Source of the DNA: Armatimonadota bacterium
Lineage (GTDB): Bacteria > Sysuimicrobiota > Sysuimicrobiia > Sysuimicrobiales > Sysuimicrobiaceae
Assembly (NCBI GenBank): GCA_031460175.1
Contig: JAVKGW010000005.1
Coordinates: 124,001-188,000 of the forward strand
Length of the DNA stretch: 64,000 bases
Direction: 5' to 3'
In this document: piece after piece, positions 25,293 to 42,997 of the stretch
How the letters are laid out: every line of letters begins with the position of its first letter
How positions within the stretch are numbered: position 1 is the stretch's first letter
Notes under the pieces: model-generated
The model's database searches: none
What the model was told of the DNA's origin: nothing
Seen by the model: only the letters and a program-made list of their open reading frames with translations
Made by a program: the position numbers and the translations under genes

Positions 25293-25985
25293 ATGAGCCC
25301 GGTGCCTTTCTGGGAACGGCCTGAGGTGGTGGAGCGGTTCGCCTCCCGCCCGCCGGACGACCGCATGGTGCGTCTCCTCTCCCCCCTCCCCCGCACCACC
25401 CGGATCCTGGACCTGGGATGCGCCGCGGGCCGCAACACGGAGTGGATGGCGCGGGAGGGATTTGACGTGTACGCGTGTGATGGTTCCGAGGCCATGGTGG
25501 CCTACACCCGGAACCGGCTGCGGCCCTACCTGCCGGAAGAGGAGCTCGCCCGACGGGTGATCCGCTGCCGCATGGACGACCTCTCCGCCTTTCCCGATGC
25601 CTTCTTCGACGTGGTGGTGGCCCTGGGCATCTACCAGCAGGCGGAGCACGCGGAGGAGTGGCACCGGGCCGTGGCGGAGACCGCCCGGGTCCTCCGCTCG
25701 GGCGGCCACCTCCTCGTCCAGCATTTCGCGGTGGGATCCCAACCCTGGGCAGGACCTCTGCGGGAGGTAGAGCCCTGGGTGTTCGAGGCGGAGGCGCCAG
25801 AGGGCGAGAGGCGACGGTTCGTGCTCCTGGATGAGACCACCCTCAACGCCTGGATGGACCAACACGGGCTCTCCCCCGAAGGCCCCGCCCGACTCACCAC
25901 CCGGCCGACCGAGGAAGGAGGGTTCTGGCACAACCTCCACGCCCACTACCGGAAGCGTGACATAGGCACGTTAAGCGGATTTTAA
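25293..25985 (+). CDS. class I SAM-dependent methyltransferase
   Basis: A 230-residue methyltransferase. Motif I is RILDLGCAAGRNTEWMAREG, then VYACDGSEAMV (motif II acid), MDDLSAFPDAFFDVVVALGIYQQ (motif post-II/III) and ARVLRSGGHLLVQ. The substrate is unknown. GGGAG lies 6 bases before the ATG. The stop codon is embedded in the first half of a regulatory direct repeat (25971-25987) serving the next gene. Confidence 0.9.
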   Translation: MSPVPFWERPEVVERFASRPPDDRMVRLLSPLPRTTRILDLGCAAGRNTEWMAREGFDVYACDGSEAMVAYTRNRLRPYLPEEELARRVIRCRMDDLSAFPDAFFDVVVALGIYQQAEHAEEWHRAVAETARVLRSGGHLLVQHFAVGSQPWAGPLREVEPWVFEAEAPEGERRRFVLLDETTLNAWMDQHGLSPEGPARLTTRPTEEGGFWHNLHAHYRKRDIGTLSGF

Positions 25986-25987
25986 GG
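25971..25987 (+). promoter_or_regulatory. TTAAG-N6-TTAAG direct-repeat operator, site A
   Basis: TTAAGCGGATTTTAAGG: two TTAAG half-sites exactly 11 bp apart, overlapping the methyltransferase stop. Ten bases after it comes TACCCT, a possible -10. The flavin amine oxidase starts 87 bases downstream. One of five such elements in the window (see 31152, 33898, 42893, 42932). Confidence 0.65.
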
Positions 25988-26074
25988 GGTACCGTCCTAC
26001 CCTCAGCTCCGCAGAAGGCCATGAGGGGAGTATCCCCACGTGGTCTAACGCCCGCAAAGTTCTGGAGGAATCGG

Positions 26075-27664
26075 ATGCGGGTCGCCAAGGGTAGCCGGAC
26101 CGTCACCTTCTCCTGGATCCAGCGGTGGCTACGTCTCGCGGACCTCGCCAACCGGCCCGGGGCTCCGCCGGTGGAGGAGCTGGTGGAGCGGAGCTGGGAG
26201 GCTCCGATGAGCCGGCGGGAATTCCTGCGGGCCGCGGGCGGTGCGGCTCTGGCGGCCACGGCGGGAGGACTCCTCCAACCCCTCGAGGTGCTGGCGGGCC
26301 CGCAAGCCCCACGGGTGGTCATCGTGGGAGCCGGCATCGCGGGCTTAAGTGCGGGGTACGCCTTGCGGCAAGCCGGGATCCGACCCCAGATCTACGAGGC
26401 CAGCACCCGCACGGGCGGCCGCATCTTCTCCGTGCGGGACGCGGTGGTGCCGGGGCTCGTGACGGAGTTCGGAGGGGAGTTCATCGATTCCGGACACGAG
26501 GAGATGCACCGGTTCGTGCGCCTGTTCGGGCTGCGGTTGATCGATCTGAAAGCCGGGGAGGAGGCCCGGCTGCGGCCCACCTTCTACTTCAACGGCCGCC
26601 GGATCTCCGAGGCAGAGGTGGTGCGGGCCTTCCGACCGCTGGCCCGGCGCATCCGGCAGGACCAGGATGCGGTGGGAGATATGGTCACGTACCGGCAGCA
26701 CACCCCCCGGGCCCGGGAACTTGATCGCCTCTCCATCTCCGAGTACCTGGACCGCATCGGTGCGGCCGGGTGGGTGAAGGAGCTGCTGGAGGTGGCATAC
26801 GTGGGGGAGTACGGGCTGGAGGCGGGGGAGCAGTCTGCCCTCAACCTCGTCCTTCTCATCGGCACAGAGCCCGGTACGACCTTCGAGGTGTACGGCGAGA
26901 GCGACGAGCGCTACAGCGTGCGGGGCGGAAACCAGCAGGTCCCGAACCGGCTGGCACAGCTCCTGGAGTCTTCCCTACACCTGGAACACCGCCTCGTGGC
27001 GCTGCGGCAGCGGGGAAACGGCTACCGCCTGGTCTTCGAACGACGGGGCGCGGGCACCGTGGAGGTGGACGCGGACTTCGTGATCCTCACCGTCCCCTTC
27101 ACCATCCTCCGGGAACTGGAACTCAAGGTGGACCTGCCGCCCGTCAAGCGACGCGCCATCCGGGAACTCGGCTACGGCACCAACAGCAAGCTCATCCTGG
27201 GGTTCCGGGAGCGGGTGTGGCGGAAGGGGGGCTCTTCGGGCGAACTCTTCACGGACCTGCCGTGGCAGAGCGGGTGGGACAGCAGCCGCGGCCGGCCCGG
27301 GAAGGCGGGGACCTACACGGTCTTTCTGGGAGGACGGGCAGGCGTGGAGGTGGGCGAGGGGCTGGCGCGAGAGCAGGCGGAAAGGGTACTCCCAGGCCTC
27401 GAACGCATCTTCCCCGGCGCCCGGGCGGCCTACGCGGGGCGGGTGGCCCGGTGGCACTGGCCCTCGGACCCCTTCGTCCGCGGGAGCTACGCGTGCTGGA
27501 AGGTGGGCCAGTACACCAGCATCGCGGGGGCGGAGTTCGAGCCCGTGGGGCGACTCCTGTTCGCGGGGGAGCACACGAGCCTCGAATCCCAGGGGTATAT
27601 GAACGGGGCCGCAGAGACCGGCCGGCGGGCCGCCCAGATCGTCCGGAGGAGGGTGCGGAGGTAG
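26075..27664 (+). CDS. Tat-exported flavin monoamine oxidase family protein
   Basis: A 529-residue FAD enzyme. After a 45-residue N-terminal extension comes a twin-arginine signal (MSRREFLRAAGGAALAATAGG). The FAD motif VVIVGAGIAGLSAGYALRQAG follows, then EASTRTGGRIFSV and the C-terminal FAD-contact RLLFAGEHTSLESQGYMNGA. It oxidises an amine or amino acid outside the membrane; the substrate is unknown. The ATG at 26075 has GGAGGAA 4 bases upstream. The Tat motif is followed by a hydrophobic run, so it may stay anchored. Confidence 0.9.
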   Translation: MRVAKGSRTVTFSWIQRWLRLADLANRPGAPPVEELVERSWEAPMSRREFLRAAGGAALAATAGGLLQPLEVLAGPQAPRVVIVGAGIAGLSAGYALRQAGIRPQIYEASTRTGGRIFSVRDAVVPGLVTEFGGEFIDSGHEEMHRFVRLFGLRLIDLKAGEEARLRPTFYFNGRRISEAEVVRAFRPLARRIRQDQDAVGDMVTYRQHTPRARELDRLSISEYLDRIGAAGWVKELLEVAYVGEYGLEAGEQSALNLVLLIGTEPGTTFEVYGESDERYSVRGGNQQVPNRLAQLLESSLHLEHRLVALRQRGNGYRLVFERRGAGTVEVDADFVILTVPFTILRELELKVDLPPVKRRAIRELGYGTNSKLILGFRERVWRKGGSSGELFTDLPWQSGWDSSRGRPGKAGTYTVFLGGRAGVEVGEGLAREQAERVLPGLERIFPGARAAYAGRVARWHWPSDPFVRGSYACWKVGQYTSIAGAEFEPVGRLLFAGEHTSLESQGYMNGAAETGRRAAQIVRRRVRR

Positions 27665-27682
27665 CCCTTCTCCGCACCCTCC
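27648..27682 (+). terminator. hairpin terminator overlapping the oxidase stop
   Basis: A perfect 13-bp inverted repeat, GGAGGGTGCGGAG (27648-27660) and CTCCGCACCCTCC (27670-27682), with a 9-base loop containing the stop codon. There is no clear U-tract, so termination may be factor-assisted. Confidence 0.6.
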
Positions 27683-27773
27683 TGGTTCCGAGGGAGCGGG
27701 TGTGGTATTCTGTATTGAAATTCGGCTCCGGTAGCGGGCCAGGACCCGACCCCGGACCGAACGGGGGTAGCGT

Positions 27774-28292: not shown

Positions 28293-28302
28293 TCTGCGGT
28301 AA

Positions 28303-28358
28303 CCAAACTCAAACCAACAAACCCGCCTTACTTTCTTTAAATAAAAAGGAGCAGGCGG
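28303..28358 (-). terminator. terminator of the minus-strand membrane operon
   Basis: Read on the minus strand, CCGCCT (28358-28353) pairs with AGGCGG (28328-28323) around an AT-rich loop that contains the stop codon. A T-rich tract (GTTTGTTGGTTTGAGTTT) follows. It is AT-rich compared with its surroundings. The loop is long, hence moderate confidence. Confidence 0.4.
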
Positions 28359-30208
28359 CACCACCCGAACCACACCGCAGCCGCCACAAGCCACCGCACT
28401 CGCCCGCGGGCCAGGACCGCGGTCGTGCCCGCTCCGGCTGCTCCCAGCCAGGCCAGGAACTGGGCCCAGCTCAGCATCTCCGTGGCCTGGACCTGGCCCA
28501 GTCGCCGGAGGAGGGTTTCGGTCCACGGCACGAAAGGCACCGGTAGGAAGAGGGGATCGTAGTAAAACGCCAGGGTGCCGGAAGCCAGAAGTAGCCCGGT
28601 GGCCACGCGGAGTCCAGGAGAGGCCGGATCCTCCCACCGGGCGACCCGCAGCGCAAGAGGCCAGAGCAGGACCGCCAGTGCCGGGGACCCCGTGCGGAGA
28701 GACGGGGCCAGCGCGGCTGCGGGAAGGGCCGAGAAGTACCCCGCGAAGAACAGGCGGGCGGAGGGAACTTCCACGCTCCAGCCCGCGACCAGGCGCGCGA
28801 GGAGGTGCGGCACCCCCCACAGGACCATCCCGAGGAACGGGTAAAGGGTGGTGGTCCGCACCGCGGCCTGCGGATCCGCGGCGAACCGGAAGCCCGTGGT
28901 GGCAAGCCCCAGGAGGGAGACGGCCGCGACCAATAGCGCCTTCTCCCCCCGCACGCCCTTTGCCGCCTGCTTGAACTCTTCCAGGAGCACGGGGGCCGAA
29001 GCGAGCAGCAGGGGCCACCACCCCGAGGGTGCTTCGACCTCCGAAAGCGCCGACCAGGCCTGTGCACCTCCCCAGTACACCAGGGCGAGCACCAGCCCTG
29101 AGGCGAGCCCGTCGCTGGCCGCGTCCACGGGGTCGTACCCTCGCAGCGCGCGCCAACCGGTCAGCAGGCCGACCAGCAAAAACAGAAAGCCGCACAGGGC
29201 CAGTCCTCCGGTCCAGGCGTCCTGGAGAAACCCCGAGACCGGACGCAACAGGAAAAGCGGCAGGAGGTCCAGCACCGCGGCCGGGGCAAGGGCGAGCCCG
29301 AGGGCCAGAATCCCCAACCCTGCGAGCATGAGAGCTACCACGGCGGGGACCTGTCGTCTACCGAGCACCTTCCGGACCCGGCCGACCAGACGACCGGCCA
29401 GCTCCGAGGCATCGTCCACCAGATCTGCGGCAAGCCACATCCAGAAGAGCCCCAAGAACGTGAAGAGGGCCGAATACCCCATCTGCAGGGCTTCCCCGAA
29501 CCGGGCAGGGCCGCGGGCGATTCCCCCTCCGTATGCCACCGCCATCCCGGCGAAGAGCACGGCCCGCTCCGGAAGCGGAAACCGAGGAGGCCGCCGGGAC
29601 AGGGCGAGCCCCGCCCCCGCGTACACCACCGTCCAGAGTGCCACCGAAGCCCACAGGGGCTTGACCACCCCGGGGCTCAAGCGTCCCAGCAGGAGAACCC
29701 AGGGGAAAAGCCACAAAGGGCTTGCGCGGTCCGCGCGAAGCCGCAGGACCTCCAGGAGGTACAGGGTGAAGGCCGGGACCAGCGCCACCACCCGGGGCAA
29801 GGCGAGGACGGGCGGCAGCAACAGGTACCACAGGGTGTAGAGGGCCATCCCGAACCGCAGGGCGGGATGGGCCGGACGCACTTCCGCGTTGAGCAGCGCG
29901 AAGACGAAGGCAGCGATGGCGCCGAGGAGCGCCTGAGCCGCGGCCCCCCGGAGCATCCATGCGCGCTGCGCCTCGCCCGCGAACACCACGGTGCCGAAAC
30001 CTGCAAGCCCGCACACGAGGAGGACGAACCCTCCCACGCCCCACGGGCCGAGCCGAAGCAGGGCAAAGGCACCCGATACGGCCGTCTGGAGGTCTTTCCA
30101 CTTGATCCCTAGGCCCAGGGCCTGGACCAGCTGATCCAGCCCGGCCACCGCGACCCCGAGCAACCTGCGCGCCCGGGTGGAAGCGGCCTCCCGTCGGTCC
30201 TCCTTCAT
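28337..30208 (-). CDS. large multi-pass membrane protein of unknown function
   Basis: A 623-residue protein made almost entirely of hydrophobic spans, perhaps 14-17, with short Arg-rich loops. It begins with a basic cytoplasmic region (MKEDRREAASTRARR). No transporter or enzyme motif is recognised. One acidic loop, VLLEEFKQAAKG, contains an E-E-x-x-K pattern like that of PrsW proteases, but without the other PrsW motifs, so this may be chance. The start overlaps the stop of the PrsW-like gene upstream (ATGA). It therefore belongs to the operon facing site B. Confidence 0.7.
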   Translation of the reverse strand: MKEDRREAASTRARRLLGVAVAGLDQLVQALGLGIKWKDLQTAVSGAFALLRLGPWGVGGFVLLVCGLAGFGTVVFAGEAQRAWMLRGAAAQALLGAIAAFVFALLNAEVRPAHPALRFGMALYTLWYLLLPPVLALPRVVALVPAFTLYLLEVLRLRADRASPLWLFPWVLLLGRLSPGVVKPLWASVALWTVVYAGAGLALSRRPPRFPLPERAVLFAGMAVAYGGGIARGPARFGEALQMGYSALFTFLGLFWMWLAADLVDDASELAGRLVGRVRKVLGRRQVPAVVALMLAGLGILALGLALAPAAVLDLLPLFLLRPVSGFLQDAWTGGLALCGFLFLLVGLLTGWRALRGYDPVDAASDGLASGLVLALVYWGGAQAWSALSEVEAPSGWWPLLLASAPVLLEEFKQAAKGVRGEKALLVAAVSLLGLATTGFRFAADPQAAVRTTTLYPFLGMVLWGVPHLLARLVAGWSVEVPSARLFFAGYFSALPAAALAPSLRTGSPALAVLLWPLALRVARWEDPASPGLRVATGLLLASGTLAFYYDPLFLPVPFVPWTETLLRRLGQVQATEMLSWAQFLAWLGAAGAGTTAVLARGRVRWLVAAAVWFGWCRLLLFI

Positions 30209-31113
30209 CCCGCCCTCCGGAGTCTCCGCACCCGGTCCCGCCAGGCCTCCACCTCATCCTCCCGTCCCAAGCCCCGCACCGCCCGCCACTTCGCGGACGC
30301 AAGCCGGAAGAGCGCCTGACGCAGCGGCTTCGAAAGCCCCCGGTCATCCACCAGGAGGGAGAGGAACTCCTCCTCCGTCACCACGTCCGCGACAACCTCC
30401 TCCCGCAGGAACCGAACAAGGAGCTCCCGATCCTGCCGTCGGGCCCACGCGTGCACGAGAACCAGCAGACCGATGGGTGCCCACTCCCAGAGCAGGAGCC
30501 CCGCCGCTGCCAGGGGTTGCCAGGGGCCGGAAACCAGGGAGACGCGGGCGACCTGGAGGAATGCGACGGATCCCGCCGCTCCCGCCGCCCATCCGATCAC
30601 AGCAAATCCCCACTGGAGCAGGCCTCGGAGCCCCCACTCCCGTCCAAACCCCAGCAGGGCGCCGTATAGGGCCGGGAGCATCGCCTGAGCCAGGCCGGCT
30701 CCCAGGATGTGGAGTTGCATCCCCAACTCCAGGAGCGAGCCCGGGAGGAGGGAGATGCCCAGGCCCACGAGGGCGTAACCGACTCCCACCCCAAGGCCGT
30801 AGAGAACGCCGTCCAGCCCGCTCTGGTATTGCCGCCGTAGTCCAACGTAGCAGGCCAGCACCGCCGCCGCCTTGCCCGCCTCCTCCATCACGGCCAGCCG
30901 AGCCGTAGGGGCGGAGTACCAGACGTGGACGAACCCGGGCCAGCCCTCCCACCCTCCGAAAACCCCAGCCAGTAGCCGCGCCACGACGGGCGCCAGCACC
31001 CCTCCCCCAAGCAGGGCTGCCGCCACCACGGTGCCGGGCTGCCTTCCAAAGCGTGCCGCGTGCGCGACAAACCCCAAGTAGGCCACCGTGAAGAGCACTG
31101 GAAGCAGCCTCAC
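30205..31113 (-). CDS. degenerate PrsW-family membrane protein
   Basis: A 302-residue polytopic protein related to the three PrsW proteins of this region. The EExxK motif is kept (MEEAGK, Glu77-Glu78-Lys81), and DGVLYGLGVGVGYAL corresponds to the second motif. However, its closing Glu is replaced (VG) and the histidine motif is AQAMLPALYG, with no His. It is probably not a working protease. The C-terminal cytoplasmic tail (SAKWRAVRGLG...WRDRVRRLR) is clearly shared with its paralogs. GTG start at 31113 with AAGGGG upstream. Divergent from the SARP-type regulator, with site B between them. Confidence 0.72.
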   Translation of the reverse strand: MRLLPVLFTVAYLGFVAHAARFGRQPGTVVAAALLGGGVLAPVVARLLAGVFGGWEGWPGFVHVWYSAPTARLAVMEEAGKAAAVLACYVGLRRQYQSGLDGVLYGLGVGVGYALVGLGISLLPGSLLELGMQLHILGAGLAQAMLPALYGALLGFGREWGLRGLLQWGFAVIGWAAGAAGSVAFLQVARVSLVSGPWQPLAAAGLLLWEWAPIGLLVLVHAWARRQDRELLVRFLREEVVADVVTEEEFLSLLVDDRGLSKPLRQALFRLASAKWRAVRGLGREDEVEAWRDRVRRLRRAG

Positions 31114-31151
31114 CTTCCACCCCTTGCCCGGCCCATTCTCCTTGCAAGCCG

Positions 31152-31168
31152 CCTTAAAATTCGGTTAA
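31152..31168 (-). promoter_or_regulatory. TTAAG-N6-TTAAG direct-repeat operator, site B
   Basis: Read on the minus strand: TTAACCGAATTTTAAGG, two half-sites 11 bp apart, best matching site A. It lies 38 bases before the PrsW-like gene and 12 bases before the SARP-type regulator, so it could control both, including autoregulation. Confidence 0.6.
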
Positions 31169-31180
31169 AGGCGGTGTGAG

Positions 31181-33901
31181 ATGCCTGGGGGCGTGTGGCT
31201 CGTACGGACGCGCTTGCTGGACCGACTCCCGCGGGAGCCCCGCTACGTGGTGTGGTTGCAGGCCCCGTACGGCTTCGGGAAGACCGTCCTGCTCCGGCAG
31301 TGGGCAGACCAGCTTAGGGAGAAAGGGTGGCGGGTCGTCTGGGCGAGCGGGGCAGCGGGTTCTCTTTCCGAGCAGATCGCTCGGTCCCTGGGGGCCGACC
31401 CCACGGCCAGATGGGGGCTTCTTCGGGTGCTCCTTGAGGATCGGCCCACGCTCCTCGTGCTGGACGACGTGGCTCTGGATGCGACCTTGGACCTGCGGCT
31501 TCCCGCGGACGGGCTCCTCGTGGGGCTCAGCAGCCGCGCGGAGCTCAGCTGGCCGGAGCTCCCCCGGATGCACACCCAGGGAAGGCTTGTGCGGCTCACC
31601 GCGGAGGAGCTGCGGTTCACCCTCGCGGAGGTCCGGGAGCTCATCGCCGACGACCGTCGGGCCTACGAGGTTTGGGAGAGCTCAGGCGGGTGGCCCATCG
31701 CGGTGCACATGGCGGCCCTCACGGGCACCTTGGACCTCCACCGGGCCTTGGTCCAGGGGGTAAGGGAATCCCTGGGATCGCAGGAGTGGGAGACCCTCCT
31801 GCTCCTCTCCGCCCTTCCCACCCTTCCGGACTCCGCGGAGGACAGGGGACTCCGGCGTCTTGAGGAGTCCGGATTCGTGCAGCGCACCCCGGAGGGCTTC
31901 CGGATCCACGCCCTCTTCGCGGAGGTCCTCCACGCCACCGCCCTGGCGGAGATCCAGGAAGCGGTGCGCAGGCGGGCTTCGCAGCTTTCTCCGGAGCTTC
32001 GGGCAGAGGCGTACTTTCGCTCCGGCCTATGGCAGGAACTGGAGCGCCTGCTCGACAGCCCCGAAGCCCTGGATCTGGCCGGCATCTCCCCTTCTGGCCT
32101 CCTCCGGTGGTGCCGGGCGCTCCCCGGGCTTGGCGGGCCGTGGCGGCGGCTGGCATACGGGATGACCCTGTGCCTACAGGGGAAACTCCAGGAGGCCTTT
32201 GCGCGGCTGGAGGCCCTCGCCCGCGACGTGGAGGCGACGCATCCCGAAGTCGCCATCCGGGCCTGGGGACTCGTGGCGTACAACGCGCCGGAGGTAGACC
32301 TGCAACGGGCGCTCAACGCCGTGGAGCGGGGATGGCGGCTCGTGGACCGGGTAGAGCCGCATGCCGCTGCCCGGTTCCTCAACTGGGCGGTCTGGCCCCT
32401 CTGGAAGGCCGGGCACCTGGACCGGTTTGAGGCCGCACTCCAAGAGGCCTCCAGACGCCTGCCGCCGGACGACCCGTACCTCTTCCACCCCATCGGCTAC
32501 AACCTGGCCTTTCTCCGCTGGCAGAAGGAAGGGAATCTGGAACACTACCTCGCCTGGAACCGGCGCACCGCGGAACACCAGGAGCGCACCCGCTCCCACA
32601 ACCTCCCCCTCACCCTGCTCGAGACCGGCCGCCTGCTCGTCCTTGCGGGTCGGTCCGAAGAAGCCCTGGCCTGCTTCCGCAGAGCACAGGCTCACCCCGG
32701 ATGGAACTTCTGGGCGGAGGCCCTGGCTGCCGCCTGGGCAGCCTACCTGGAGCGGGATACCAGGCCCTTCGAGCGGCTTGCGAGCCTCGCGGAGGCGGAC
32801 GAGAACCCGGAACTGCTGGATGCGATCCGGGGTCTGTGGGCGCGTACCCTGAGGGAAAGCGGCTCCCCCGACCTTGCCCTCGCGGTGACGCAGCCCGTCC
32901 GAGGCTTCTGGACCGCGCTGGAGGCGGCCTTGACCCTGTGGGAGCTGGGGCGACCCGAAGAAGCCCAGGTTTACCTTCCACCAGAACCCAGGGATCGGGA
33001 GGAGCGGGCCTATTACCACGCAGCCCGGTACCGGATCCTGCGGTCCGAGGTAGACCTGGAAGCCCTGGTCCGGCTCACCTCCCTCGGGCCCCGGATCCTC
33101 CCGGCGCTCCTGCCCGTGCACGAGCTGCCCCGGCACCGGCCGGAGCTCGCGGACTTCTACCCGATTGAGGAGGTGCTCCGCTGCGGCTGGAAGGAGGCCA
33201 TAGAGCGGCGCCTGGACGAAATCCCACTCCTCGCGGTGGAGCTGCTGGGACGGTTTCGGGTCCGCCGTCTGGGACAGGAGGTCTTGCTCTCTCCCACCGC
33301 CCGCAACCTGCTCGTCCTCCTCCTTTTGGGCCGGGACCGGGAAGCCATCGCGGAGGACCTGTGGCCGGAAGCAGCGCCCGGGCAGGCCCGCAACAACCTC
33401 CACGTCCACCTCCACCACCTCCGCCGGGCGCTGGAACCATGGGGAGTTCCCACTTACCTCACGCCCACCGGGTTCCGGAGGACCCGGGTGGACCTCTGGG
33501 ACCTCCAGGAAGCGTTGGACCGGCAGGATGCGGAGGCCGTCCTCCGGTTGTACCGGGAGCCCGTGGCTCCCGGGGTGGACCTCCCCGCGGTGGACGAAGT
33601 CCGGTACGCCCTCCAGCAACGGGTCGTGGACCTCCTCCACCGGCGGGGGAGCGCTTCCGAGTCTGAAGAGGGCATCCGGTACCTGGAGCGGGTGCTGGAG
33701 CTGGACCCTCTGCACGAGCCCGCCCTCCAGGCCCTCCTGCGCTGCCTACTGAGTCTGGGCCGTCGGGAGGCAGCCCTGCGGGCCTACCGGGCCTTTGCGG
33801 AGAGGTTGCGGGCCGAGCTGGACACCGACCCCCTCCCCGAGACCCAGGCCCTTCTGGATTCCGTACCAACCGGAACCTCCTCCCGCAGGAGGCGGTCTTA
33901 A
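31181..33901 (+). CDS. STAND ATPase / SARP-type transcriptional regulator
   Basis: A 906-residue protein. The N-terminus has a MalT/LuxR-LAL-like STAND NTPase: Walker A APYGFGKT (residues 28-35), Walker B LLVLDD (91-96), and the winged-helix marker GGWPIAVHMAAL. The middle (about 250-680) is helical, TPR-like, as in MalT. The C-terminus is not the LuxR helix-turn-helix but an OmpR-type winged helix (about 686-765, ELLGRFRVRRLGQ... LHVHLHHLRRAL) followed by a BTAD domain (about 770-895), i.e. the SARP architecture. Such proteins activate transcription from 11-bp-spaced direct repeats; five such repeats occur in this window. The gene ends inside site C. Confidence 0.88.
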   Translation: MPGGVWLVRTRLLDRLPREPRYVVWLQAPYGFGKTVLLRQWADQLREKGWRVVWASGAAGSLSEQIARSLGADPTARWGLLRVLLEDRPTLLVLDDVALDATLDLRLPADGLLVGLSSRAELSWPELPRMHTQGRLVRLTAEELRFTLAEVRELIADDRRAYEVWESSGGWPIAVHMAALTGTLDLHRALVQGVRESLGSQEWETLLLLSALPTLPDSAEDRGLRRLEESGFVQRTPEGFRIHALFAEVLHATALAEIQEAVRRRASQLSPELRAEAYFRSGLWQELERLLDSPEALDLAGISPSGLLRWCRALPGLGGPWRRLAYGMTLCLQGKLQEAFARLEALARDVEATHPEVAIRAWGLVAYNAPEVDLQRALNAVERGWRLVDRVEPHAAARFLNWAVWPLWKAGHLDRFEAALQEASRRLPPDDPYLFHPIGYNLAFLRWQKEGNLEHYLAWNRRTAEHQERTRSHNLPLTLLETGRLLVLAGRSEEALACFRRAQAHPGWNFWAEALAAAWAAYLERDTRPFERLASLAEADENPELLDAIRGLWARTLRESGSPDLALAVTQPVRGFWTALEAALTLWELGRPEEAQVYLPPEPRDREERAYYHAARYRILRSEVDLEALVRLTSLGPRILPALLPVHELPRHRPELADFYPIEEVLRCGWKEAIERRLDEIPLLAVELLGRFRVRRLGQEVLLSPTARNLLVLLLLGRDREAIAEDLWPEAAPGQARNNLHVHLHHLRRALEPWGVPTYLTPTGFRRTRVDLWDLQEALDRQDAEAVLRLYREPVAPGVDLPAVDEVRYALQQRVVDLLHRRGSASESEEGIRYLERVLELDPLHEPALQALLRCLLSLGRREAALRAYRAFAERLRAELDTDPLPETQALLDSVPTGTSSRRRRS

Positions 33902-33914
33902 GCCGGTTTTAAGT
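33898..33914 (+). promoter_or_regulatory. TTAAG-N6-TTAAG direct-repeat operator, site C
   Basis: TTAAGCCGGTTTTAAGT overlaps the stop codon of the regulator gene. TAATGT follows 10 bases later as a likely -10, and the next gene starts 45 bases after the site. It would drive the long operon from 33960 to about 42298. Confidence 0.65.
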
Positions 33915-33959
33915 CCGGCTGGCCTAATGTGGCCCCGACGGAGCGGACCGGAGGCGGCC

Positions 33960-34313: not shown

Positions 34314-34334
34314 GCCACAGATGGAGGGATTCCG

Positions 34335-35387: not shown

Positions 35388-36007
35388 ACCGTAGTCTTCT
35401 GATCGGCGGCGGTCTGGGCTGTGGGTGCCTCACGCTGCTCGCGGTGGTCGCGGTGGTGGCAGGACTCGTGGTCTTCGCACGGCCGAAGTCCGTGCCGACT
35501 CCGCAGCCCACGGTGAGTCCTCCGCCCGCGCCGAGCCCTGCCCCGACAGGTCTCGGTCCCACGCCACAGCCCAGCCCTGTTCCCACGCCTCCGCCGCCCG
35601 GTGGCCGGTGCCCGCAGCAGCCCGTGGCCCAGGGACCGGAGGCGCTGGGGAAGGGGATCTGCCCCCAGCAGGTGCCGGGGGTGGAGATTGGAGGCGGAAT
35701 GACCGTGCGGCTCGGACCGGATGGGATGCCTACGGAGCCGGCGGGCGTGTTCCGGGTGGGAGAGCGCGTAGGGGTGGACTACACCATCCTTCGCATGGAC
35801 ACGCAGGTGGTCAGGGTGGTCGTCAGGGTAGAGTCTCAGGAGCGTGTGATTCCGGTTAACCAGCCGGAGCCTGAGGACAAACCTGGACGGTTCCTCTACC
35901 GCCTGGACACCGGCGGCGGTTCTCCTGGACTCTACGCCTTTGCCCTTGCCGTACCCCAGGGAGGCCAGCCCGCGGTGGTGCTGGTGATCCCCTTCGCCCT
36001 CCAGTAG
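35384..36007 (+). CDS. membrane-anchored secreted protein, GCGCLTL type (a)
   Basis: A 207-residue protein: a short N-terminus, one membrane span starting GGGLGCGCLTLLAVVAVVAG, a Pro-rich linker of about 45 residues, and a beta-rich external domain that begins with a Cys-Pro motif (GRCPQQP... GICPQQV). The external domain matches that of the protein at 41768 (PTEPAGVFRVGERVGVDYT versus EPTGLFQRDRDRALVVGFSY). Single-span proteins beside PrsW proteases are natural substrate candidates; this is inference. Translationally coupled to PrsW 1. Confidence 0.7.
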   Translation: MNRSLLIGGGLGCGCLTLLAVVAVVAGLVVFARPKSVPTPQPTVSPPPAPSPAPTGLGPTPQPSPVPTPPPPGGRCPQQPVAQGPEALGKGICPQQVPGVEIGGGMTVRLGPDGMPTEPAGVFRVGERVGVDYTILRMDTQVVRVVVRVESQERVIPVNQPEPEDKPGRFLYRLDTGGGSPGLYAFALAVPQGGQPAVVLVIPFALQ

Positions 36008-36016
36008 GAGCTCGGC

Positions 36017-37183
36017 GTGGCGACCTCGGCGGCTCGTCCCTCCTTCGGCGTGGACACGTTCCTGAAGGCCGTCGGGCTTGCGGGCTTCGGCTTCGTGCTG
36101 CTCGTACTCGCGCTTCTGCAGATGCTCCTCTTCTACCAGAAGGCCGGAGGGGTGTTGCAGTTCCTCATGGCCAGTTTTGCCGCCCTTTCCGTGGTCCCCT
36201 TCTACACCGGGCTCATCCTCCTCCTGGACCGCCACGAGAAGGAACCGGGCTGGCTCCTCTTGGGCGCGTTGCTGTGGGGAGGGGTCGTGGCCACCTTCTT
36301 CAGCCTGATCTTCAACTCCATCGGGAGCGCCATCCTGGTGGCCGTCTTCGGACCCCGGCTCGGCGAGCAGCTCAGTGCGCCCTTCGTGGCACCCGTGGTG
36401 GAGGAGACCTCCAAGGGACTCGCGGTTCTCCTGATCTTCTTGCTGTGGCGCCGGGAGTTCACCAACACCGTGGACGGCCTCGTGTACGGGGCCCTGGCCG
36501 GCCTGGGGTTTGCGGCTACGGAGAACATCCTGTACTTCGCCCGCTTCGTCCGGGAGGGCGGAGCCGGCGGGCTCGCCGTTGGCTTCGTGATCCGGGCGGT
36601 CCTCGGAGGTCTCTCGCACTCGGTCTACACCGCGTGCACCGGTGCGGGCCTCGGGTACGCCCGGGAGACGCGGGGCGTTGGCCGGTTCCTCGCGCCCGTG
36701 GTCGGTTACTTCTGCGCCATGTTCCTCCACTTCCTTTGGAACTTCTCCGCCACCTTCGCCCTGCCCGCGGTCGCGCGATCTGCGGGTAACGCGGCACTCC
36801 TGATGCTCCCCGTGATGTCGTTTTTCATCGAGGGGATCCCGCTCCTTCTGCTCGTGGTGATCGCGTACTTCGCCTGGAAACGGGAGGTGGCGGCCATCCG
36901 AGAGGGACTCGCGGACGAGGTCCAGGCGGGCACCCTCTCGCCGGAGGAGGTGGAAGTGCTCACCCGACCGCGGGAGCGGTCCCGGCACCTGTGGCAGGTT
37001 CTGACGACGAGAGGACCCCTTGCCTGGAACGCGGTGCGCCAGCTGTACGACGCCCAGGTGGATCTCGCCTTCGCCCTGTGGCGACTCCGGCGGGGCGAGC
37101 CGGTGGAACAGGACGTGCAGGCCCTCCGGGAACGGGTCCGGGTGTTGCGGGAGCGGGCCCGGGGAATGGGGGTGGCGGCATGA
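36017..37183 (+). CDS. PrsW-family intramembrane metalloprotease 2
   Basis: A 388-residue protein with about eight spans and the most canonical motif set of the group: DRHEKEPGWLLLG, PVVEETSKGLAVL with Glu129-Glu130, VDGLVYGALAGLGFAATENILYF with Glu169, LSHSVYTACTGAGLG with His201, and FLHFLWNF with His238. The tail carries the shared module (AVRQLYDAQVDLAFALWRLRRG...LRERVRVLRERA). GTG start with GGAG upstream. The stop overlaps the next anchored protein (ATGA). Confidence 0.9.
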   Translation: MATSAARPSFGVDTFLKAVGLAGFGFVLLVLALLQMLLFYQKAGGVLQFLMASFAALSVVPFYTGLILLLDRHEKEPGWLLLGALLWGGVVATFFSLIFNSIGSAILVAVFGPRLGEQLSAPFVAPVVEETSKGLAVLLIFLLWRREFTNTVDGLVYGALAGLGFAATENILYFARFVREGGAGGLAVGFVIRAVLGGLSHSVYTACTGAGLGYARETRGVGRFLAPVVGYFCAMFLHFLWNFSATFALPAVARSAGNAALLMLPVMSFFIEGIPLLLLVVIAYFAWKREVAAIREGLADEVQAGTLSPEEVEVLTRPRERSRHLWQVLTTRGPLAWNAVRQLYDAQVDLAFALWRLRRGEPVEQDVQALRERVRVLRERARGMGVAA

Positions 37184-37947
37184 GGCAGGCCCGGACAGGC
37201 CAGGCCGGCGTTAGCGTTTGGGTCGTGGTGGCCGTTCTCGCGGCTCTGGTATTCGGATTCCTCGTACTGCTCGGAATGGGTGGGGTGGCCTGGTACCTGA
37301 TCTCGCACCGCCCGAGCCCCCCACCGCCGGTCCCTGTTCCTTCCGGGCAATCTCCGACTGCCGCGCCCACCGGGCCTGCGCCGCAGCCCTCAGCTCCTCT
37401 TCCGCAGCCACCTGGTCCTATACGCTACGCCCGATACATAGACCCCGACGGCGAGTTCGCGGTGGACTACCCGGACACCTGGCGGGTTTTCCCAAACCGC
37501 CAAGGTGTGGTCTTCTCTCCTCCCACAGAGGACCCGCGCGAGGGGACCCAGGCTTTCTTCAGCAAGCTCGTCGGTCAGACCGGCCGAGGCCTAATTCCGG
37601 CCCAACAGCTGCTGGACGAAGTCGTCCAAGGCGAGCGGAGGCGGTATCCGGACTATCAGGTGGTGCAGCGGTGGGTACGTCCTGGGCCGTTCCGGGAGAC
37701 GGAAGAAGCGTACCTCGAAGCCGTGTGGACGAACGCACGGGGTGAGCGGATGCACGGGGCGGGCCGCTTCCTCCTGCTCCACTCCGCAACGGTACAGGCC
37801 AGCATGTGGCGCCTCATTTTCTACCGCTCCCAGGAGACGGCCTGGCTCAGCCTCCTTCCCGTGTTCCAACACATGGAACAGAGCTTCCAGCCCGGCAGCA
37901 CGGGCCCTGGCCCGGGACCATCTCCGAGCCCGACACCGACGCCGTAA
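37180..37947 (+). CDS. membrane-anchored protein with PsbP/DUF1795-like domain
   Basis: A 255-residue protein: one N-terminal span (about 11-35), a Pro/Ser linker of about 35 residues, then a domain starting YIDPDGEFAVDYPDTWRVFPNRQGVVF, the usual opening of PsbP-like/DUF1795 folds. It ends in a Pro-Ser tail. Its function is unknown. Together with the genes at 35384 and 41768 it forms a set of single-span external proteins interleaved with PrsW proteases. The ATG overlaps the PrsW 2 stop. Confidence 0.72.
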   Translation: MRQARTGQAGVSVWVVVAVLAALVFGFLVLLGMGGVAWYLISHRPSPPPPVPVPSGQSPTAAPTGPAPQPSAPLPQPPGPIRYARYIDPDGEFAVDYPDTWRVFPNRQGVVFSPPTEDPREGTQAFFSKLVGQTGRGLIPAQQLLDEVVQGERRRYPDYQVVQRWVRPGPFRETEEAYLEAVWTNARGERMHGAGRFLLLHSATVQASMWRLIFYRSQETAWLSLLPVFQHMEQSFQPGSTGPGPGPSPSPTPTP

Positions 37948-37962
37948 GAGGGGACCCCAGCC

Positions 37963-39114
37963 ATGCAAGGAGTCTCACACACACCCCTTCGTAAGGGCTA
38001 CCTGGCCCTCCAGTTGGCCCTCCTCGGCGTTTTCGCCCTCGTTGGGCTTTTGGTCCTGCTGATCCTGGTGGGAGAGACCGGAGGGGTACTTCCCTTCCTC
38101 CTCGGGTCTGTTCTGTCCGTGCTCCCGGTTCCCCTCTACGTGGCGTTGATCCTGTGGATCGACCGGCACGAGAAGGAGCCGGGGTGGCTGCTGCTCGCGG
38201 CCTTCTTCTGGGGCTCCACCGTCGCCATCCTCTTCAGCTACATCTTCAACTCTCTCCTGGCGGAAATCCTGCGGGCCCTTCTGGGTCCCCTCTGGGCCAC
38301 ACGGGTCACGCTCGGCATCGTGACGCCCCTTGTGGAGGAGACCGCCAAGGGGGTGGCGCTTCTGGGCATGGCGTTTGCGGTGCGGGACGAGTTCGACAAC
38401 CTCACCGACGGCCTCGTCTACGGAGCGCTGGTGGGCCTGGGCTTCGGGGTTGTGGAGAACGTCCTGTACCTGGGGCGCGCCTTCAAAGCGGGAGGCCTCG
38501 GAGGCTTGACCGTGCTGTTCTTCCTCCGGGTGATGCTTCTCGGCCTCATGCACTCCATCTGGACGGGATGCACGGGCGCAGGCGTCGGCTATGCCCGGGA
38601 GCGCGGGGGAGCCGCCCGGTTCCTCGCGCCCGTGGGCGGGTACCTGGCCGCGGTGTTCCTGCACGCCCTGTGGAACTCCAGCAGCGTGGGGCTCGAGGCC
38701 GCGGTCGGACCGAGGGCTTTGCTGCTCGTCCCGGTCCTCTTCGGGGTGATCCTCCTGCCGGGCGTACTCGTCCTCGGAGTGCTCGCTTACCTGTGCGAGC
38801 GGCGGGAGCGGGAGGTCCTGCGCTCTCACCTCCTGGACTTGGTGGCCTCCGGGGAGCTCTCGGAAGAAGAGCTGCGGGTGGTCGCGGGCCGGGAGAAGTC
38901 CAGGCGGCTTTGGCGCGCCTGGGCGCAGAAGGGACCGTCCGGGTGGCTCGCCCTCCGCCAGTTCTACGACGCCCTGGCGGAACTGGCCTTCGCCCGGTGG
39001 AGGGCCGCGCAGGGCAGGCCTTCGGGAATCTCGGAGGAGGAACTGCGGGCTCGGATCCGCGAGCTCCGGGAACGGCTGAAGGCGCTGGGCCTGGAAGGGC
39101 CCACGAGGGGGTAA
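37963..39114 (+). CDS. PrsW-family intramembrane metalloprotease 3
   Basis: A 383-residue protein closely related to PrsW 2: IDRHEKEPGWLLLA, TPLVEETAKGVALL with Glu125-Glu126, LTDGLVYGALVGLGFGVVENVLYL with Glu165, LMHSIWTGCTGAGVG with His197, and FLHALWNSS with His234. The tail module is ALRQFYDALAELAFARWRAAQG...LRARIRELRERL. PrsW 2 and 3 look like a tandem duplication that includes the linked anchored protein between them. Confidence 0.9.
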   Translation: MQGVSHTPLRKGYLALQLALLGVFALVGLLVLLILVGETGGVLPFLLGSVLSVLPVPLYVALILWIDRHEKEPGWLLLAAFFWGSTVAILFSYIFNSLLAEILRALLGPLWATRVTLGIVTPLVEETAKGVALLGMAFAVRDEFDNLTDGLVYGALVGLGFGVVENVLYLGRAFKAGGLGGLTVLFFLRVMLLGLMHSIWTGCTGAGVGYARERGGAARFLAPVGGYLAAVFLHALWNSSSVGLEAAVGPRALLLVPVLFGVILLPGVLVLGVLAYLCERREREVLRSHLLDLVASGELSEEELRVVAGREKSRRLWRAWAQKGPSGWLALRQFYDALAELAFARWRAAQGRPSGISEEELRARIRELRERLKALGLEGPTRG

Positions 39115-39121
39115 ACGGAAG

Positions 39122-40264
39122 GTGGACCCGGAAACCCTGTTCCAGGGAGCAGAGCGCTCCATTGCCGCTCGGCTTGCTTCCGCCCTCCCGCGTCTGCGGC
39201 CCGTGCTGCCTGCCCTGGAGGCGCAGCGGCGGCGGTGGGCGCGGGTCGTGTGGGCCGCCCTGACGCCGCCAGCGCTCATGGCGGCCTTCCTGGCGGGGAG
39301 CCTCGCTATCGGGCTTCTCCTGCTCGTCCTGGGGCTGCTGGCCTCTGCGGTCGCCCCGGAAGTCGGCGCTTCCCTGACGGCTCTCTCGCTCTCGACGCTG
39401 GCCCTCATGTCCGCCTTCGTCCCGTTTATCTCGTTTGTTCTCGGTCCCGTGTACGTGTTCGCGCTCGTGGTGGGCTGGATTCTCCTCGTACCCTACCGCG
39501 ACCGGGTTTCCAGCGAGATCCGGACAAAACTCCTGGAAGAACTGGCTCCCCTCCCGGGCCTGCGGCCATCACACGCCGGGGCTGCTGAGTTCGGGACGGG
39601 GTTTGCCGACCTCGTCCGCGGCCTCGTGGGAGGCCGGCCCCCTCGCGTCAACCTGGCCATGGTGGGAGAACTCGCGGGCCGCCGGCTCGCGTTCGCGGAG
39701 GTGGACGTCCTCCCCACCATCCCCCGGCGGCGGGGCTTTCTCTACCCCGGCCCTCCCGGCCGAGGGGGCCGGCAGTTCTACGGGCTCGTGGCGGCCGTCG
39801 AGATGGACCCGCCCGGGAGCCCGACCGTGCTGGTCACCTGGGCGGGGTTCTGGGCGCGGGTCAGCCTGTGGGACCTGAACCTCTCGAGTGCCCGAAAGCG
39901 CTTGCAGAAACTCCCTCTGCAGGACCCGGCCTTCGACGCGCACTACGAGGTCCACACGGACCACGTCGAGCAGGCGCGGACCTTCCTCCGACCGGAGCTG
40001 CGGGGAGCCCTCCTGTACCTAGCGCGGCAGCTTCCCTGGAAGCCGCTGCTGGCCTTGGGAGGCGGCCACGCGTATGCCTTCGTGCCGTGGCGAGGGTTCC
40101 TGGAAATGTCGCCCTTCCGGCGGCTCGACGAGCGGTGGGTCCAGAACAAGGCACTTGCGGACCTCCGGGCCCTCCTCCGGGCGGTGTGCCTGGCCGCCGT
40201 GGCCGCGGGAGTTTCCGCACGGGATGTCGCGGACGCGTTCATGAAGGAGGCCCGGGCGTCATGA
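39122..40264 (+). CDS. DUF3137-like membrane protein (a)
   Basis: A 380-residue protein: an N-terminal helical region, two hydrophobic spans (about 55-80 and 95-125), then a cytoplasmic domain. DPAFDAHYEVHTDHVEQARTFL followed by LALGGGHAYAFVPW is the recognisable DUF3137 (galanin-like) pattern. It ends ALLRAVCLAAVAAGVSARDVADAFM, matching the end of the gene at 40795. Function unknown. The GTG start has GGAAG upstream, and the stop overlaps the next gene (ATGA). Confidence 0.7.
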   Translation: MDPETLFQGAERSIAARLASALPRLRPVLPALEAQRRRWARVVWAALTPPALMAAFLAGSLAIGLLLLVLGLLASAVAPEVGASLTALSLSTLALMSAFVPFISFVLGPVYVFALVVGWILLVPYRDRVSSEIRTKLLEELAPLPGLRPSHAGAAEFGTGFADLVRGLVGGRPPRVNLAMVGELAGRRLAFAEVDVLPTIPRRRGFLYPGPPGRGGRQFYGLVAAVEMDPPGSPTVLVTWAGFWARVSLWDLNLSSARKRLQKLPLQDPAFDAHYEVHTDHVEQARTFLRPELRGALLYLARQLPWKPLLALGGGHAYAFVPWRGFLEMSPFRRLDERWVQNKALADLRALLRAVCLAAVAAGVSARDVADAFMKEARAS

Positions 40265-40788
40265 CCTCTGTGTCGCTGCTGCTCGCGGTTTCCACCCTGA
40301 CCCGGCTGGTCCCTTACACGGACGCGGAAGCCCGTTTCCGGGTGCTGCGTCCTGCCGCCTGGCAGGTGGAACGTGTCCGGGTCAACCTCATGGAAACCGT
40401 GTTCTACCGAGACCACCCCCGTCGGGGTCCGCGGGCAGTGGTCGTCCCGCAGGCTCAGGTGGCGGCCTCCACCCTCCGGGAGGCGGCCTGTCTTATGCTG
40501 CAGTACGTCCGGCCCGCGGACATCGTTCCACCGCGGTCCGGCCCCTGGCCCCGGAGGCGGTGCGGTTTCCCTTGGTCCTTTCACACCGCCGCCACGACCT
40601 CCGGGGAAGGCGAAGCCGCCTGGCAGGCCGGGCGCGCGCGGGAGAGGACTCTCTACCGGATCCGGCTGATCCAAAAGTCGGGCGGTGTGCTCCAGGTGGA
40701 CTTCCTGGCGGGCGTGGCGCCCGCAGACGAGTTCATCTCTCTCCGGCCCATCTTCCGGCAGGTGATCCGTTCGTACCGGGCCCCCTGA
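40261..40788 (+). CDS. small secreted protein with PsbP-like opening motif
   Basis: A 175-residue protein. A short hydrophobic N-terminus may be a signal peptide. The domain opens YTDAEARFRVLRPAAWQVE, similar to the PsbP/DUF1795 start in the 37180 protein but without a span and linker. It contains a Cys-rich patch around residues 75-105. Function unknown. Coupled to the DUF3137-like gene upstream by an ATGA overlap. Confidence 0.6.
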   Translation: MTSVSLLLAVSTLTRLVPYTDAEARFRVLRPAAWQVERVRVNLMETVFYRDHPRRGPRAVVVPQAQVAASTLREAACLMLQYVRPADIVPPRSGPWPRRRCGFPWSFHTAATTSGEGEAAWQAGRARERTLYRIRLIQKSGGVLQVDFLAGVAPADEFISLRPIFRQVIRSYRAP

Positions 40789-40794
40789 CCCGCC

Positions 40795-41757
40795 ATGACG
40801 TCGTCTTGGACCGAACTCCAGCAAGCCGTCCGTCGGGCCCTCCGGTCGGTCCCCGATCTCGCGGCGGTGCTGCAGGCGGCAGAGGCCGAGCACCGGCGGT
40901 TGACCCCCTACGGCATTCTCATGCTTCTCGCTCTCCTCCTGCCGTTCGTGGGGTTCGTCCTGGGCTCTCCCTTCGGCCGTTGGGGCGGGTGGATCGGCTT
41001 TGGGGCAGGGGCTCTGCTGCTCGTGGCGTACTGGATCTGGTACTCCAACCGCGTGGACGCTCTCACCACCGCGGTCAAAGAGAGGGCGGTGGTCCCGGCT
41101 CTCGGAGCGCTGGGCTTCCGACTCCAGGAGACGGTGCCGGAAGAGCTGGCATCCCGGCAAAGAGTCGTCCTCGCCGACGTCTTCTCCGCCCCGAAGGTCG
41201 AACTGCACCATCCCACAGCGGCGACTCTGGGCGGGCGGGCGATTCAGGTGGCGCACGCGGCGGCCCAGAGATACATGGGGCGTGGTCTGTACCGTACCGT
41301 CTTCTCCGGGCTCGTGGCCACGGCGGCCGCTCCCACAGTCGGACAGCGCGTCCTCGTGGTCCGGGAGATGGGGGTCCTCGGGGCGCTCGAGGACGTGAAA
41401 CGCAGGCTGGCGGGACTCAGGCGGGTGGAACTCCCGGACCCGACCTTCGAGGCCCTGTACACCGTGTACGCGCAGTCCGAGGACCTGTCCGCGGCCCTGC
41501 ACCCCTTCTTCCGAGACGCCCTCGTCCAGCTCGGCCAGGTCCCGCGCGCAAGGCCCGTGGTCGCCTTCCACGAAGGCCAGGTCCACGTCTTCCTCCCCCG
41601 GCGGGAGTGGCTGAACCCAGCCGCTTGGGATCGGGTCTCGGAGGACCAGCTGAGCTCGGACCTGGAAGCGCTTCTCCAGGCCAGCTTCCTCGCGGCGGTG
41701 GCCGCGGGCGCTTCCCCGCAAGAAGTGCTGGCGTCGGTGCGGGAACTCACGGTGTAG
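40795..41757 (+). CDS. DUF3137-like membrane protein (b)
   Basis: A 320-residue paralog of the 39122 protein: an N-terminal helix, two spans (about 38-60 and 62-80), then a cytoplasmic domain with DPTFEALYTVYAQSEDLSAALHPFF and VVAFHEGQVHVFLPRREW. It ends ALLQASFLAAVAAGASPQEVLASV. Starts 6 bases after the previous stop. Function unknown. The DUF3137 pair and the PrsW pair suggest repeated duplication within this operon. Confidence 0.7.
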   Translation: MTSSWTELQQAVRRALRSVPDLAAVLQAAEAEHRRLTPYGILMLLALLLPFVGFVLGSPFGRWGGWIGFGAGALLLVAYWIWYSNRVDALTTAVKERAVVPALGALGFRLQETVPEELASRQRVVLADVFSAPKVELHHPTAATLGGRAIQVAHAAAQRYMGRGLYRTVFSGLVATAAAPTVGQRVLVVREMGVLGALEDVKRRLAGLRRVELPDPTFEALYTVYAQSEDLSAALHPFFRDALVQLGQVPRARPVVAFHEGQVHVFLPRREWLNPAAWDRVSEDQLSSDLEALLQASFLAAVAAGASPQEVLASVRELTV

Positions 41758-41767
41758 GAGGGACGGC

Positions 41768-42247
41768 ATGCGCGGTTGCCTCGTGGGCTGCGGCTGCCTC
41801 ACGTTGGCGGTGACGGTCGTCCTCGGCCTCGTGGTGGTGGGCGCGGTGGCCCTCTTCTACCCCTACTACCGGGCGGGTAAGGAAGTCGCCGCCACCGGCT
41901 GCCCTCAACAGGCTCCGGCGCAGGCCCCGCTCGGCCGCGCGGTCTGTCCTGTCCGGATCGAGGGGCTCGAGTTCACGGGCGGCCGCTCCTACCGTCTTCG
42001 GGGCGTGGGTCCGGGCGAGCCCACGGGCCTGTTCCAGAGAGACCGCGATAGGGCCCTCGTGGTGGGCTTCAGCTACCGGTCCACGATTCCGGCCTCGTTG
42101 CAGGCCTCCCTTGCGGCCCTGCGGGACGGGCGCGTGGTCCCCGTGGCACCTGTGGGAGGAATAACCTTGAGGGCCAGCAGCGAGGGCTGGCGCTTCCAGG
42201 CGGTGTCCCTGCCGGACTCGGCAGGCCGCTACGCAGCCATCCTGTAG
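41768..42247 (+). CDS. membrane-anchored secreted protein, GCGCLTL type (b), with premature amber stop
   Basis: A 159-residue protein as read. It has one span beginning GCLVGCGCLTLAVTVVLGL, then a Cys-Pro-containing beta domain homologous to the 35384 protein, without the Pro-rich linker. The frame stops at a TAG (42245-42247) and stays open for another 16 codons (PSSGSAVVFLLPFEVR) to a second TAG at 42296-42298. Those 16 residues match the last strand of the paralog (PQGGQPAVVLVIPFALQ). Either the last strand is lost, or the amber codon is a recent mutation, sequencing error or readthrough site. GGAGGG precedes the ATG. Confidence 0.7.
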   Translation: MRGCLVGCGCLTLAVTVVLGLVVVGAVALFYPYYRAGKEVAATGCPQQAPAQAPLGRAVCPVRIEGLEFTGGRSYRLRGVGPGEPTGLFQRDRDRALVVGFSYRSTIPASLQASLAALRDGRVVPVAPVGGITLRASSEGWRFQAVSLPDSAGRYAAIL

Positions 42248-42316
42248 CCCTCCTCGGGTTCCGCCGTCGTCTTCCTGCTCCCCTTCGAGGTTCGCTAGGG
42301 AGTGGTCCCTGTCGCC

Positions 42317-42868
42317 TTACGGCACCACCCGGACCTGGTAGCGCCGGAGGGTCTGGAGGATCCGCACCTTCTGGGGGTCGCCGATCCGCACGAAGTCGAA
42401 CTTCAGCAGGCGCGTGGCCCGGCTGTAGGCGATCACGAAGATGGCGGTCTCCGTCACGAGGAAGTAGCCGGGCTCCCGGGTCACCCCGTCTCCGTCCAGG
42501 TCCAGGTCTACCGTACCCCGCCGCAGGGGAAGCACCGCCTTCGGGTCGTCCCGCTTGAGCGCCACGAGGATCCGGGGCTTTTCGGGGTCCACGGGGCACA
42601 GCCAGGCGTCCAGACCCGTGGGCTTCCCGGAAGGATCCAGCACCTCGCAGCGCGGGGTCAGCAGCAGATTCTGGGCCGCGTTGCGGTAGCGACCTTCCGG
42701 GGTGCGCTCCAGCCGGAAGAACACCTTCTGGCCCACGGGCGACGTGCGCACCACCACCTCCCCCCGCAGCTCCCGCTCCCACCCTCCCACGGTCCGCACC
42801 TCGTAGGCTCGGGATACCAGACCCGCGGGGGCCGCCGCGAGGAACGCCGCCAGAACCAGGAGCCGCAT
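42317..42868 (-). CDS. secreted protein of unknown function under site D
   Basis: A 183-residue protein with a signal peptide (MRLLVLAAFLAAAPAG). The mature part is beta-rich, with two cysteines (PRCEVLDPSGKPTGLDAWLCP) and an Asp-rich loop DLDLDGDGVTREPG that resembles a calcium-binding DxDxDG motif. It is not recognised. It starts 24 bases downstream of site D, so the promoter is very close, and it converges with the PrsW operon. Confidence 0.65.
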   Translation of the reverse strand: MRLLVLAAFLAAAPAGLVSRAYEVRTVGGWERELRGEVVVRTSPVGQKVFFRLERTPEGRYRNAAQNLLLTPRCEVLDPSGKPTGLDAWLCPVDPEKPRILVALKRDDPKAVLPLRRGTVDLDLDGDGVTREPGYFLVTETAIFVIAYSRATRLLKFDFVRIGDPQKVRILQTLRRYQVRVVP

Positions 42869-42892
42869 GACACGGCCAGTAAACCCCGGGGG

Positions 42893-42909
42893 CCTTAAGG
42901 TCCGCTTAA
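42893..42909 (-). promoter_or_regulatory. TTAAG-N6-TTAAG direct-repeat operator, site D
   Basis: On the minus strand: TTAAGCGGACCTTAAGG, nearly identical to site A. TTTACT follows 9 bases later as a possible -10, and the ATG of the minus-strand gene is 24 bases away. Confidence 0.65.
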
Positions 42910-42931
42910 AGCGCAGGACGGGCCGGAGACT

Positions 42932-42948
42932 TTAAGTGGGGCTTAAGG
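42932..42948 (+). promoter_or_regulatory. TTAAG-N6-TTAAG direct-repeat operator, site E
   Basis: TTAAGTGGGGCTTAAGG, facing the gene at 42998, 49 bases upstream of its start. Sites D and E stand back to back in one divergent intergenic region, each oriented towards its own gene. Confidence 0.65.
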
Positions 42949-42997
42949 TCTTTGTGCCACGTTGTGAGCACAACTCCCTCTCTGTGGAGGGAGCACT

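Follow-up and report, generated by a model that had tools for sequence, protein, structure and literature searches.

The TTAAG-N6-TTAAG repeat, which occurs five times around the gene at positions 31181-33901 of an Armatimonadota genome, is best explained as the putative operator and core promoter of the SARP-type activator that this gene encodes, which would control a small envelope or secretome regulon; we put the probability of this reading as a whole at roughly 0.88. It builds on the sites themselves, their spacing and conservation, their linkage to the regulator gene, the position of the -10-like hexamers, and the domain identity of the encoded protein. The sequence-only reading of this DNA had taken the repeats for OmpR/SARP-type activator sites read by the 31181 protein. 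Linkage, conservation, geometry, and domain identity all favor this, and it is from the linkage that we infer binding of the boxes by the protein.

Sites and genes in the window

The window, i.e., the whole 64-kb stretch of DNA that was analyzed, has a GC content of 70% and contains the following sites and genes:

25971..25987, +, site A, TTAAGCGGATTTTAAGG, with -10-like TACCCT at 25998-26003, predicted to serve the Tat-type flavin amine oxidase gene
26021..27664, +, flavin amine oxidase with Tat signal, downstream of site A (Amino_oxidase 4e-64; weak TAT_signal)
28337..31113, -, operon under site B: PrsW-like protein (30205-31113) and 623-aa membrane protein (28337-30208)
31152..31168, -, site B, TTAACCGAATTTTAAGG, between the divergent SARP and PrsW-a genes, with weak -10-like GAGAAT at 31135-31140
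31181..33901, +, proposed activator, 906 residues: N-terminal STAND NTPase, TPR, winged helix (~684-770), BTAD (~771-893)
33898..33914, +, site C, TTAAGCCGGTTTTAAGT, with -10-like TAATGT at 33925-33930, predicted to serve the 33960 gene and the PrsW operon
33960..34313, +, 117-aa open frame with ATG at 33960, the first gene past site C
34335..39114, +, region past site C: three PrsW-like proteases alternating with secreted proteins
39122..42247, +, cluster end past site C: two DUF3137 membrane proteins and a secreted 159-aa protein
42317..42868, -, secreted 183-aa protein under site D
42893..42909, -, site D, TTAAGCGGACCTTAAGG, with -10-like TTTACT at 42878-42883
42932..42948, +, site E, TTAAGTGGGGCTTAAGG, with weak -10-like CACGTT at 42958-42963, predicted to serve the secreted 225-aa protein
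42998..43675, +, secreted 225-aa protein under site E

All five 17-bp elements lie, to the base and on the same strands, where they had originally been placed, and the TTAAC half-site reported for site B is present, the first half-site of B being the degenerate one. Two sites had been said to overlap a stop codon; these are A and C, each of which runs into the end of the gene before it, in the case of C the SARP gene, and site D lies ~24 bp ahead of the start of the secreted 183-aa protein. There are 19 TTAA words in the window, of which 10 are half-sites of the five sites; the remaining words had been described as having no partner at 11 bp, and indeed none of them (0/9) is paired. The -10-like hexamers proposed 9 to 10 nt past the 17-bp element at A, C, and D hold up, and the restriction to these three sites has been lifted, with candidates now also assigned at the other two: CACGTT at site E is weak, with an offset of 10 counted from the last G, and GAGAAT at site B is one base further off, at an offset of 12.

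The true start of the flavin amine oxidase is likely near 26075. The four PrsW paralogs exceed the Pfam cutoff of 23.5, with scores from 26.7 to 166.7 bits (PrsW-protease 4.6e-6 for 30205-31113 and 7e-27, 6e-49, and 1e-45 for 34335-35387, 36017-37183, and 37963-39114, respectively), and the 36017 paralog lies under the NCBIfam PrsW equivalog cutoff (50 of 225 bits). A Pfam search with the 117-aa frame at 33960-34313 gave no match. Between 30205 and 39114, the four diverged PrsW-like paralogs alternate with small secreted proteins, in a local expansion that is unusual and is found in synteny across the family. In both phyla considered here, the genes downstream of boxes mostly code for membrane proteins and for proteins with a signal peptide or lipoprotein signal, as judged by eye; a peptidase S46 gene is found behind a box in the relative G002. 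With exported and membrane products prevailing behind the boxes, the likeliest role of the system would be an envelope or secretome response.

Rarity, conservation, and linkage of the sites

When up to 2 mismatches are allowed on both strands, TTAAG-N6-TTAAG has 14 matches in the window versus a mean of 2.5 in shuffled versions (100 shuffles, with a maximum of 7 matches, so that none reached 14). Pattern searches of the whole genome (2.49 Mb; 98.9% complete) yielded 7 TTAA(G/C)-N6-TTAAG sites versus 0 for the reversed-pattern control; five of the seven are the window sites, within 17 kb around the gene at 31181-33901. Across the five family genomes that carry the SARP, 23 of 33 TTAAG pairs have a spacer of exactly 6 (phase 11) when spacers from 0 to 30 are allowed, and 18 of the 23 exact sites fall in the 1.4% of the sequence around the regulator gene. 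The sites are thus rare and clustered genome-wide rather than randomly scattered, and the shuffles, reversed-pattern controls, and spacer test together rule out an origin by chance or composition. Sites with 1 mismatch elsewhere in the source genome were considered as regulon members and set aside; control matches are equally frequent, and hence we claim no further members.

The regulator is present in five of six relatives within the family (G001, G002, G004, G005, and G006), all of which have sites; the sixth, G003, has neither the regulator nor an exact site. The orthologs in the named relatives, 63 to 69% identical, belong to Armatimonadota MAGs. Sites A to D recur at orthologous positions while their spacer letters vary between relatives, which answers the question, raised at the outset, of whether the sites are conserved. 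A box precedes the amine oxidase ortholog (site A) in G001, with 1 mismatch, and in G004, G005, and G002, in the last ~400 bp upstream. Site C has an exact counterpart at the same place in G001, G002, G004, and G005, and in the same four genomes a box lies 24 to 28 bp before the ATG of the ortholog under site D. Site B has a degenerate counterpart at the same place, again in these four, such that its half-site is degenerate in all five genomes; for site E, no orthologous site was identified in the relatives. A distant site on contig C4 of the source genome precedes a gene for a secreted 524-aa protein, and the G001 ortholog of this protein is part of the cluster and has a site as well.

SARP homologs with ~35 to 42% identity occur in Deinococcota. 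In a Thermaceae MAG, exact boxes flank the homolog gene on both sides, and G103 has just two boxes in 3.4 Mb, one 134 bp ahead of the homolog gene and the other 1.6 kb behind it. The link was examined further in six held-out genomes, which were found by a homolog search of the phylum of G103 and were not used to define it: here, 10 of 18 boxes fall within 5 kb of homologs, a span that makes up 0.75% of the sequence (binomial P of ~2e-17), with 2 of these 10 near boxes (both in G195) being orthologous to G103/G104 boxes and therefore not fully independent. The association between regulator and box proposed from the window thus extends to a second phylum, at loci that did not define it, and this held-out linkage is the strongest evidence that the SARP family in question would read the box. 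It is not universal: exact sites are absent within 1.5 kb of the genes in a clade of 13 homologs (genomes of ~2.2 to 2.4 Mb) and from the entire genome of G189 despite its homolog, from which we conclude that specificity or local targets have changed there.

These data also bear on the possibility that the sites are bound by a different winged-helix protein, for instance a response regulator of the PhoB/OmpR type, and that the SARP gene is merely a conserved target. OmpR/PhoB-type proteins likewise use direct repeats 11 bp apart, and a response regulator of the OmpR type is encoded in a region of G016 with TTAAG pairs (see below). In addition, AfsR and PhoP have a common site at afsS (PMC10972967). 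However, the box stays linked to the SARP gene across two phyla at 35 to 42% identity while the other neighbors differ, the family member lacking the SARP (G003) also lacks the exact box, and none of the proteins scanned within the window cluster (24 to 46 kb) is a response regulator. We hence regard this alternative as improbable and favor the 31181 protein as the reader of the box.

The regulator and the predicted promoter mechanism

The sequence-only reading had posited a winged-helix domain in the 31181 protein; what we found there is an AfsR-like module, in which an OmpR-like winged helix is directly followed by a BTAD, a feature of the SARP type. Pfam recognizes the BTAD (6.8e-14), and Trans_reg_C (9e-5) stays under its cutoff. 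A profile of five orthologs compared against solved structures recovered AfsR (E value of 1.3e-6), EmbR, and MalT. Likewise, Foldseek with the AF2 model (mean pLDDT of 89.6) matched AfsR, with a TM score of 0.61, along with EmbR, MalT, and a STAND-TPR protein. The SARP module occupies residues ~684 to 893 of 906, i.e., the C-terminal part, whereas SARP domains are described as N-terminal in the literature (PMC10972967). The LuxR-type HTH of MalT/LAL regulators was sought with Pfam, and no GerE match was obtained. Hence, the protein joins a SARP-type effector to a MalT-like sensor chassis, and its modules come in the opposite order to those of AfsR. It is the single strong BTAD protein of the source genome, the second match being partial.

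As to the promoter, an xAxxxT hexamer (often TAnnnT) begins 10 to 11 nt after the second TTAAG in 14.1 of 21 ortholog groups, with only 0 to 2 groups at any other offset; none of 2,000 within-group permutations reached 14.1. About 10 of 12 further sites also show the hexamer at the expected offset; at a site on contig C6, upstream of a histidine kinase gene, the -10 is absent from the expected place. In published SARP promoters, the repeats are 11 bp apart and the 3' repeat lies 8 bp from the -10 (PMC10936776; PMC7040171). If TTAAGNN is taken as a 7-base repeat, the distance here becomes 8 to 9 bp, which matches this rule and bears out the original notion of an OmpR/SARP-type placement. On these grounds, the promoter is predicted to work like a SARP promoter.

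A fixed upstream motif with a -10 at a fixed distance is also reminiscent of a sigma signature, and PrsW proteins elsewhere act in anti-sigma pathways; both points would suit an alternative (ECF) sigma factor that recognizes these sites as its -35 and -10 elements. Yet a direct repeat of two equal half-sites in 11-bp phase is not sigma-like, the -10 retains a loose, housekeeping-like TAnnnT, and the conserved linked gene is the SARP gene, with no sigma gene among the scanned proteins of the window cluster, making such a factor very unlikely. That the repeats are mobile-element or composition artifacts, as their clustering within 17 kb might suggest, is barely credible given a window GC of 70%, flanks and spacers that differ between sites, orthologous positions in relatives, and control patterns that give 0.

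Taking these findings together, we propose that a side-by-side dimer of the C-terminal winged-helix and BTAD domains of the 31181 protein would bind the two half-sites, one helical turn apart. With the second half-site so near a poor -10 (10 to 11 nt ahead of it), the dimer would stand in for the -35 element and hold sigma region 4/RNA polymerase, as AfsR does. The AfsR dimer spans -40 to -19 in the solved structure and substitutes for the -35 contact, in keeping with the absence of a good -35 at the boxes studied here. The N-terminal MalT-like STAND ATPase and the TPR array probably sense a signal and control dimerization. The regulon of the source genome would be small, with some five promoters near the regulator and a single conserved one elsewhere in the genome; its products being membrane (PrsW-like and DUF3137) and exported proteins, it probably mounts an envelope or secretome response. 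In a Thermaceae-type case, the box lies 23 to 24 bp before the start of the regulator gene itself, which we read as autoregulation.

Relation to known systems and further occurrences of the repeat

Several parallels are offered by known regulators. AfsR of Streptomyces coelicolor (PDB codes 8hvr and 8k60; PMC10936776) also combines a winged helix and BTAD with an NTPase and TPR, and its afs box, placed between the -35 region and a poor -10, is likewise a pair of direct repeats in 11-bp phase. In contrast, the SARP module here is C-terminal, the half-site is TTAAG rather than CGTT(T/C)ATCG, the hosts are Armatimonadota and Deinococcota, and the targets are exported and membrane proteins. The small SARPs (ActII-ORF4, DnrI, and RedD) share the direct repeats in 11-bp phase near the -10 but lack the STAND/TPR part and control antibiotic clusters in actinobacteria. 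MalT/LAL regulators have an N-terminal STAND ATPase with helical repeats and a C-terminal DNA-binding domain (fold match 8bob), which is, however, a LuxR-type HTH in MalT versus a winged helix plus BTAD in the 31181 protein. The winged-helix and BTAD fold also occurs in EmbR of Mycobacterium tuberculosis (2fez), which has an FHA domain at its C terminus and lacks a STAND ATPase.

According to a 2024 review, SARPs are restricted to actinobacteria (PMC10972967). The homologs studied here occur in Armatimonadota and Deinococcota, with genes for PrsW-like and exported proteins as neighbors in place of a secondary-metabolism role, so that membership in the narrow actinobacterial SARP group fails on two features, the N-terminal module and the host/function; the mechanism is unaffected. 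Thus, fold, box geometry, and mechanism are of an already known kind, and the reversed domain order, the TTAAG half-site, the conservation across phyla, and the secretome regulon appear to be new; our literature search found no paper joining PrsW and SARP. We consider it reasonably probable that these proteins form a non-actinobacterial SARP branch with reversed order and a MalT-like chassis, which uses one operator (in full, TTAAG-N6-TTAAG-N10/11-TAnnnT) across Armatimonadota and Deinococcota and controls the envelope or secretome rather than antibiotics. If so, SARP-type promoter activation would be a general bacterial mechanism. The regulator, its DNA word, and the promoter spacing can be read from genomes of two non-actinobacterial phyla, making the regulon directly testable. 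This offers a first regulatory handle on the envelope proteins of a lineage that is uncultured, and it is a clean case in which an operator is conserved although the proteins share only 35 to 42% identity.

The repeat is also found in other settings. In two genomes of the same order, exact TTAAG-N6-TTAAG pairs, six in G014:C21:21795-42171 (L131 and L132) and five in G016:C3:111408-126292 (L133), are packed in one 15- to 20-kb region each, around a molybdopterin oxidoreductase region, with an OmpR-type response regulator present in that of G016. We do not count these clusters as the same system: they have no SARP ortholog at the cutoff used, their spacers are AT rich, and most of them run on the opposite strand from the genes that follow. 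A different regulator there apparently relies on an identical half-site. In G209:C1, there are 27 matches versus 1 for the control; many of the 27 are palindromes with CTTAAG at each end, which may point to a separate CTTAAG-based system; with the motif so common, the site near the homolog of this genome may be due to chance. In G004, G005, and G002, triple GTAAGG-N5-TTAAGA-N5-GTAAAG-like repeats, 11 bp apart (L083:5726-5752, L085:4657-4683, and L078:2960-2986), are perhaps three-repeat operators.

A strict motif-free scan for 6-base repeats beside the homologs recovered TTAAG at one and TTAAA at another only, and no paper on TTAAG repeats in Thermus was found in the literature. In a homolog tree built as a test of transfer between phyla, the Armatimonadota copies form one clade and the backbone is not resolved; two rows with very long branches (L153 and L157) may be wrong frames. 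A 40%-identical homolog with a near box in a MAG named Burkholderiales (L092; JAIXKN010000012.1) possibly reflects transfer or misbinning. Finally, a conserved protein of 63 to 84 aa is encoded divergently from the SARP homolog (L134:8707-8961, L135:6927-7181, and L174:5634-5825), and in several Deinococcota it sits 24 to 36 bp past a box.
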